From positions 1 through 64,000 of the forward strand of contig NZ_FOXI01000003.1 of assembly GCF_900115675.1 (NCBI RefSeq): a stretch of 64,000 nt of DNA. Direction: 5' to 3'. A program made the translations under genes and the position numbers. Each line of letters begins with the position of its first letter. Positions within the stretch are counted from its first letter, which is position 1. A model generated the notes under the pieces. The model saw only the letters and a list, made by a program, of their open reading frames with translations. It did no database searches and was not told the DNA's origin. This stretch comes from Halolamina pelagica. GTDB lineage: Archaea > Halobacteriota > Halobacteria > Halobacteriales > Haloferacaceae. Positions 10,715 to 12,714 of the stretch are shown here, piece by piece.

Positions 10715-10735
10715 ATGATTGCGAGGGGCCGATGA
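10715..10735 (+). CDS. Possible six-codon leader ORF (MIARGR)
   Basis: ATG at 10715 opens a six-codon frame, MIARGR, whose TGA (10733-10735) overlaps the ATG of the next gene (10732) as ATGA. A CATATA box at 10685-10690 sits ~27 bp before this ATG, so the transcript could start on it and be leaderless. A GAGGGG stretch inside it could act as ribosome-binding site for the main gene. This is inference from spacing only; the frame could be chance. Confidence 0.35.
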   Translation: MIARGR

Positions 10736-12714
10736 CCGAGGACGCCGTCTCGTTCTCGCTCTCGGACGGCGAGTTGACCGTCCGGGACGAGGCCGGCAGC
10801 GGCGAGGTCGTGGTGGACGTCGACGGGGCCACCTCGGTCACGCCCGCGACCGACGCGTGGTTCGACGTGCCCGTCGACGCCGCGGTGAGCGTCGAGACCT
10901 CGTCGATGGAGGTTCAGGGGGCACCCGCCACCCAACTCCGGCGCGTCGACGGCGAGAACTACGGCTCGCTCACGGGAGGCACGTTTTCGATCGACGGGGA
11001 GACGTACGTCGATATCACCACGGCGATGAAGCTCCTCGTGTACGTCGACGGGGAGATGACCGGCCGGTTCGTCGGTGACGCGGAGAACCCCGATTCGTTG
11101 CTCTTGACGTTCGACGATCCGACCCGCATCGTCGTCGGCGCCCGCTCGTTCCACGATTCGCCGATCGCGACGATGACCGTGACCGACGATCCCGAGGACC
11201 TGATGACGGCGGCGTCGCACCTCGGGTCCGCGATCAAGGAGTGGTCGGCCGAGCGGTCGTGGCCGACGCTCCGGGGGCACCCACCCGCCATCGAAGCGGG
11301 CGACGAACTCGACGTCCCCGACTGCCTCTCGGTTCCCGATACCGACGTGACTGTCGCCGTTCCGCCGAATACGGCGGACGTTCTCCGCGTGACTCCCCTG
11401 GCGTACTACTTCGGCGCCGACGTCGTGTCCGGGGACCGGGCGGAGCTCCGACTCGGTACCCAGCACGTCGAACCGCTCGGGGCGGGCGCCGAACTGGAAC
11501 AGTCGGTGGACGATCTCCTCGCCCACGCCATCGTGCTCGACAGTCTGGTCCGGATCGACGGCTACTACTCGTTGCCACGCTACGAGTACGAGGAAATCGC
11601 GCCGGAGCTCCCGTTTTACCCGCCCGAGCTCTACGACGAGCCGATCCACCGACAGCTACTGGAGTATCTCGAAGTCTCGTTCGAGACGATACGGCCGTAC
11701 ATGCCGACTTGGCACGCGGTCGGCACGCTCCGGCCGACCGCCGCCGCCGCCGAGGCAGTCCCCTACCTCCTGAGTACGCTCGCTCGAGTTCACGTGACCC
11801 CGGACGGGGTTCCGCGGCAGTCGCCGCCCGACACCGGAAAGCCGCTCGATCTCTCGCCGAGCCCCGCCGTCCCGCACCGCACCGCCGCACTCCCGACGCC
11901 CGCCCGCGAGAGGGCAGCCGAGCACGAGGAGCGCCGATCGGGCGACGCGTCCGTGCTGTTCGTCGGTTGGGAGGCGCCGTACGGGGCGGGGTTCACTACC
12001 GTCGACTGGAGCCGGTTCAAGATCGATGCCACCCCGACTGCGACGTACCGGCCGTCCGTCACCCGGGCGGAACTCCGTTCACTACTCGCGGAGGAGTACG
12101 CCCACGTCCACTACGGGAACCGCGTCACTGAGGAGGGGTTCGTCTGTTCCGACGGCGTGCTCGCGTTCGAGGATTGCCCCGACGGATCGGTGGGGGCGAT
12201 CTCGTTCGTGTGGGGGCAACGGACGACGGCTGCACTCACGGACCTTCTCGACACGGTGTCGGTCGCCTGCCTGACCGACGAGCAGCTCTCGATCGAGGAG
12301 GCACAGGAACTGGCAGTCTACCTCGTGCTCGGCCGATCGGTCGCGTCGAGCGCCCGCCTCACGGGAATCGACGCGGTTCGCTATCTGGGGGACGCATTAC
12401 TCCCGGTCGCACACAGACCAGTCGGGTACTGCCCGACCGTCTTCCAGGTCGAGCGAGCCGACGATAAGTTCCACGTCTCGACCGTACTCGACACCAACGA
12501 GCGTGACCTGATCGGACGGGTCTCGACCTCCCGCTTCCAGGAACTATCCGACCGGTTTCAGCTGTCGGGAACAAGTGTTTGCATCCCCGAACCGGTCTCG
12601 GGGGACGAGCTCGCCGATATGCTGACGGTCGACGGCATCTTCCGGTTCGACTGGCGGACGGAGTCGGAGCGGGACCCGGCCCTGTCTGCGCCCGACGACC
12701 TCCTCACGAAGTAG
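10732..12714 (+). CDS. Haloarchaeal protein with degenerate CHAT-like C-terminal domain
   Basis: 660 residues, acidic, no signal peptide or membrane helix. The N-terminal ~370 residues are of unknown fold. Residues ~395-620 follow the order of haloarchaeal CHAT (caspase-like) proteins: a strand with VLFVGWEAP, TRAELRSLLAEEYAHVHYGN with His460, EEGFVCSDG, then a strand AISFVWGQR at ~489-497 where the family usually has LNAC-S, then repeats of helices and VRYLGDALL where others have VVGDG. The catalytic Cys is not visible, so it may be an inactive member. Assignment is by recalled family pattern, not a search. Confidence 0.6.
   Translation: MTEDAVSFSLSDGELTVRDEAGSGEVVVDVDGATSVTPATDAWFDVPVDAAVSVETSSMEVQGAPATQLRRVDGENYGSLTGGTFSIDGETYVDITTAMKLLVYVDGEMTGRFVGDAENPDSLLLTFDDPTRIVVGARSFHDSPIATMTVTDDPEDLMTAASHLGSAIKEWSAERSWPTLRGHPPAIEAGDELDVPDCLSVPDTDVTVAVPPNTADVLRVTPLAYYFGADVVSGDRAELRLGTQHVEPLGAGAELEQSVDDLLAHAIVLDSLVRIDGYYSLPRYEYEEIAPELPFYPPELYDEPIHRQLLEYLEVSFETIRPYMPTWHAVGTLRPTAAAAEAVPYLLSTLARVHVTPDGVPRQSPPDTGKPLDLSPSPAVPHRTAALPTPARERAAEHEERRSGDASVLFVGWEAPYGAGFTTVDWSRFKIDATPTATYRPSVTRAELRSLLAEEYAHVHYGNRVTEEGFVCSDGVLAFEDCPDGSVGAISFVWGQRTTAALTDLLDTVSVACLTDEQLSIEEAQELAVYLVLGRSVASSARLTGIDAVRYLGDALLPVAHRPVGYCPTVFQVERADDKFHVSTVLDTNERDLIGRVSTSRFQELSDRFQLSGTSVCIPEPVSGDELADMLTVDGIFRFDWRTESERDPALSAPDDLLTK

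Follow-up and report, generated by a model that had tools for sequence, protein, structure and literature searches.

What does a caspase-like protein do once the residues with which it would cut are gone? The question is raised by a gene at positions 10732-12714 (+) of contig NZ_FOXI01000003.1 from the haloarchaeon Halolamina pelagica, whose first 64,000 nucleotides were analysed (this whole stretch is the window referred to below). The gene is one intact open reading frame (ORF) with an ATG start and zero internal stops, encoding 660 amino acids (aa), hereafter the window protein. An initial annotation had described it as a CHAT-like protein that seemed to lack its catalytic Cys.

The catalytic dyad and the predicted fold

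The window protein fits a family of haloarchaeal CHAT-type paralogues of ~700 aa, with which it shares full-length homology and the N-terminal motif ERS[WY]P[TS]LRGHPP. Of 116 genomes sampled from the order, 106 carry the family, and each of these 106 has an active CHAT domain. The genome of the window carries five family copies, 46 of 60 related genomes gave a match, and same-genus orthologues are 61-81% identical to the window protein, the named ones being Halolamina. Active members carry a full CHAT-type dyad, with the motifs HYxGH (or HFxGH) and LN[A/G]CxS; they are annotated variously as hypothetical protein, CHAT domain-containing protein or caspase family protein. We collected 122 relatives by similarity to the window protein and aligned them at both catalytic columns. 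The dyad turned out to be all-or-none: His and Cys are both present in 65 of the 122 and both missing in 56 (the dead members), one further relative is a short ORF without the dyad region, and one residue alone was seen in 0 of 122, a count from which rarer intermediates may be missing because sampling followed similarity to the window protein.

The window protein belongs with the dead members. Its Cys-site strand, AISFVWGQR at residues ~489-497, has no Cys under either placement of the column, which falls on Gly495 with MAFFT and on Gln496 with hhalign, as the annotation had said of the Cys. The His is lost too. It had been placed in HVHYGN (residues 458-463), but His460 of that motif aligns with the first, non-catalytic His of HYxGH. 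Since Arg464 fills the catalytic His column and the Cys strand is without Cys, both catalytic residues are gone. In dead members generally, Pro predominates at the His column and no residue is favoured at the Cys column (Thr, Ala, Val, Asp, Pro and others occur), which gives no hint of a replacement nucleophile. The original placement of the His was off by a few residues, and the dead members show no conserved His/Cys pair at the site. The window protein is almost certainly a catalytically dead CHAT pseudo-protease.

The window protein, its N-terminal ~370 residues included, has no significant match in Pfam, NCBIfam or PDB sequences, in line with the annotation's remark that the N-terminal part resembles nothing known. 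The Pfam CHAT profile was matched by 10 of 20 active catalytic domains (best E 1.1e-6) and, in a separate scan, by 7 of 32 full-length proteins, but neither the window protein nor any dead domain scanned matched it. The Peptidase_C14 (p20) profile was unmatched by the window protein and the family members scanned, although distant kinship of the family with C14 p20 by fold is possible despite this null result. However, a dead-domain profile with the window protein at its head matched the active-domain profile at 99.1% probability (hhalign, E 2e-18).

Structure prediction agrees. The AlphaFold2 (AF2) model of the window protein (predicted local distance difference test, pLDDT, 88.3; predicted template modelling score, pTM, 0.89) gave VIA Z scores of 11.7 to DdvA, 11.6 to gingipain RgpB, 11.3 to separase and 10.5 to TPR-CHAT. 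For an active Haloferax marisrubri protein (pLDDT 82.4, pTM 0.83), the VIA-align Z scores were 19.3 to gingipain RgpB, 17.0 to separase, 15.9 to SAVED-CHAT and 14.7 to TPR-CHAT, and Foldseek returned SAVED-CHAT (8tl0) as the top match, with separase, gingipain and TPR-CHAT. The caspase-like fold is thus present in the window model, and the CHAT-like character assigned to the C-terminal part holds. Dead members are predicted still to fold as clan-CD caspase/separase-like proteins behind a conserved N-terminal region; in the window protein, the first caspase-like half starts within the last part of residues 141-356.

One loss and the constraint since

To trace the dyad, a tree was built from the N-terminal region alone, leaving out the part that bears the trait. 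Every dead member falls on one side of one branch (Shimodaira-Hasegawa-like approximate likelihood ratio test, SH-aLRT, 99), so that one change is enough, and we read this change as a loss because CHAT proteins from elsewhere have the dyad as well. Three families, Haloferacaceae, Halobacteriaceae and Natrialbaceae, contain dead members, whose sequences indicate a single ancient loss of both catalytic residues, kept across at least three haloarchaeal families. Dead copies have been duplicated in Halospeciosus and Halovivax, and in ~20 of the 116 genomes of the order N-terminal regions outnumber active domains, which by these counts implies dead copies there. On the active side, L034:7112-9163 from the window genome forms, together with L041, L042 and L045, a deep separate branch (support 100) whose His motif is GHCE or GHRE in place of GHID. 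In Halobacterium sp. KA-4 (L121:7590-12209), a full active copy is followed by an apparent second copy broken into two ORFs, one N-terminal and the other of ~300 aa.

The two parts of the dead proteins have been under different constraint. At 40-50% N-terminal identity, the CHAT part is 21% identical between dead pairs and 49% between active pairs. Ratios of nonsynonymous to synonymous substitution (dN/dS), estimated by the Nei-Gojobori method from close pairs that are not independent of one another, have medians of 0.21 (N-terminal) and 0.36 (CHAT) in dead members, against 0.17 and 0.10 in active members. Of the 216 positions in residues 141-356, 86 reach a conservation of 80% or more among dead members; the CHAT part has 6 positions at this level in dead members versus 38 in active ones. 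Taken together, dN/dS and conservation indicate that the N-terminal function has been kept, and that the CHAT part is relaxed though not free. We are therefore highly confident that the dead protein is retained under selection.

Putative role beside the active paralogues

Many Arg, His, Asp and Pro residues in residues 1-356 are invariant and common to dead and active copies. This N-terminal region may sense a ligand or drive assembly, and the dead protein would retain that function without the ability to cut; keeping the one and lacking the other, it would modulate the active CHAT paralogues in trans. It might do so as a decoy that takes up the same signal as the active paralogues, or as a non-cutting subunit in a mixed assembly with them. 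The two forms do occur together. Among 42 Halorubrum genomes, 38 have dead and active copies, one has active only, one dead only and two neither (Fisher p 0.01, in a test that treats related genomes as independent), and the pairing there is near 1:1. In a genus taken to be Haloferax because it has a protein in common with H. marisrubri, exactly one active copy is present in 15 of 15 genomes. We regard trans-regulation of the active paralogues by the dead protein as an evenly balanced proposition. Of the initial suggestion of a pseudo-protease regulator or partner, the pseudo-protease half stands on the conserved family, the single old loss and the modelled fold; the partner half is plausible and weakly suggested by active paralogues in the same genome, the Halorubrum pairs, the shared and conserved N-terminal half, and dead copies that were duplicated and kept.

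Several points weigh against such regulation. With active copies present almost everywhere, co-occurrence is weak evidence, and the Fisher test takes no account of how the Halorubrum genomes are related. No conserved gene adjoins the dead copies across genera, and the relaxation of the C-terminal half may be a sign that the N-terminal half acts alone. In the chief alternative, the N-terminal region does a job of its own, binding or scaffolding, apart from the active paralogues, and the C-terminal part is a structural remnant under weaker constraint. The contrast between a conserved N-terminal region and a CHAT part with so few conserved positions fits this, as does the lack of a conserved partner gene. 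However, the CHAT dN/dS of ~0.36 is still well below 1, nearly every lineage seen has retained the CHAT domain, and a job unrelated to the active paralogues sits poorly with the near 1:1 pairs of Halorubrum; we hold this explanation to be possible but doubtful.

The invariant polar residues raise a further alternative, another catalytic activity, for example with a site in the 141-356 region. Arg138, Ser139, His141, Arg175, Arg181, Asp270 and Arg274 are invariant or nearly so in dead and active members alike. Yet it is their conservation in the active proteases that suggests a sensing or structural role instead, and no enzyme family was matched, making a second activity improbable. Less probable still is a protease whose nucleophile or general base has shifted: several Cys and His residues are left, such as His460 and Cys472, but their positions vary among dead members (460 is mostly Tyr, and the Cys position is variable), and Cys472 is a non-catalytic Cys that active copies also have. 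A decaying pseudogene is scarcely credible and was rejected on dN/dS, well below 1, and on conservation, with intact full-length orthologues in more than 40 species, although the ORF is split in two frames in Halolamina pelagica (L055) and in G002 (G002:C1:493708-495611), a split that is likely an assembly error because G002, at 79% completeness, has further family copies that are split.

Returning to regulation in trans, its fullest form would be an operon-free two-component CHAT system, in which an active caspase/separase-like protease and a dedicated pseudo-protease have a common sensor region, the latter acting like a built-in inhibitor and the former possibly being a source of haloarchaeal caspase-like activity. 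We consider this elaborated version unlikely, if conceivable.

Gene neighbourhood and related systems

Table 1. Coordinates of the gene and its parts in the window, with the basis of each assignment.
Feature	Position	Strand	Basis
Predicted CHAT pseudo-protease gene, 660 aa	10732..12714	+	intact same-genus orthologues, 61-81% identity
Residues 1-140, predicted beta-sandwich with weak likeness to glycosidase beta-domains	10732..11151	+	AF2; VIA Z ~7-8.9
Residues 141-356, most conserved region of the family, motif ERS[WY]P[TS]LRGHPP	11152..11799	+	conservation, AF2, VIA
Residues 398-556, degenerate CHAT (caspase-like) domain	11923..12399	+	hhalign to active domains, E 2e-18; VIA to gingipain RgpB/separase
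Arg464, catalytic His position	12121..12123	+	alignment
Gly495/Gln496, catalytic Cys position	12214..12219	+	MAFFT (Gly495); hhalign (Gln496)
Residues 557-660, C-terminal tail; Gly595 and Gly613 invariant among dead members	12400..12714	+	AF2, conservation

The gene lies among an erythromycin-esterase family gene, an endonuclease IV family gene, a gene for an exported DUF11 protein and a methyltransferase gene, which look like housekeeping genes. A setting like that of gasdermin or Craspase systems, as first proposed, is not borne out: the flanking genes are ordinary, PADLOC gave no convincing defence model (a single weak JAB match), and no Cas7-11, gasdermin or defence genes were seen, the window genes beyond the immediate neighbours being judged by eye. 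No relatives were found among phage records and viral contigs, and a viral structure library gave no convincing match.

Elsewhere, the synteny of dead copies stops at the genus; in Halorubrum, for instance, a divergent gene lies next to them. A 60-aa DUF7557 / ribbon-helix-helix-like gene lies ~34 bases downstream of dead copies (L093:10225-10407 and nine further Halorubrum/Halobellus loci). A DUF7504 gene, by comparison, stands just upstream of active copies at 21 loci under 11 genus labels (L106:7183-7899, L119:7092-7790 and 19 others) and of 0 dead copies; its product is likely a functional partner of the active CHAT proteases. A second active group (L097, L123) has a conserved ~225-aa gene upstream (L097:7220-7897) and a ~140-aa gene downstream (L097:10368-10778), under 8-9 genus labels and neither with a Pfam match.

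The closest relatives of the dead members are the active haloarchaeal paralogues, which have the same architecture, homology over the full length and N-terminal regions ~35-45% identical to theirs, but which keep HYxGH and LN[A/G]CxS and in many cases the upstream DUF7504 gene that dead copies lack. Among solved folds, Csx29/TPR-CHAT of Craspase and separase are, with gingipains, among the nearest. Csx29 and separase place a pseudo-caspase half ahead of a catalytic half (PMC10028731), and the two-half layout is shared; however, the window protein has no TPR match, its catalytic half is dead too, and neither Cas7-11 nor other cas genes were seen near its gene. SAVED-CHAT resembles the family in joining a sensor region to a CHAT effector, although the family's N-terminal region showed no match to SAVED. 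Cyanobacteria and Alphaproteobacteria have pseudo-orthocaspases, caspase-fold proteins that form conserved clades and are without the His-Cys dyad, which they have lost (PMC6426788). The dead family is like them in all these respects; they are C14 p20 proteins, whereas the dead family is CHAT-like, with replacement residues that are not fixed.

To conclude, the dead members form an archaeal clade of CHAT-type proteins, ancient and conserved, in which the dyad is missing, whereas a survey of prokaryotic caspase homologues, covering the C14 p20 family, found no dyad-less variants in Archaea (PMC6426788). Strong caspase-like activity has been measured in Haloferax volcanii, the responsible protein not being named in that paper (PMC3615174), and the active sisters of the dead members are reasonable candidates for it. 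If this link holds, the family would offer concrete candidate genes for haloarchaeal caspase-like activity, together with a natural dead paralogue, in a genetically tractable archaeon.
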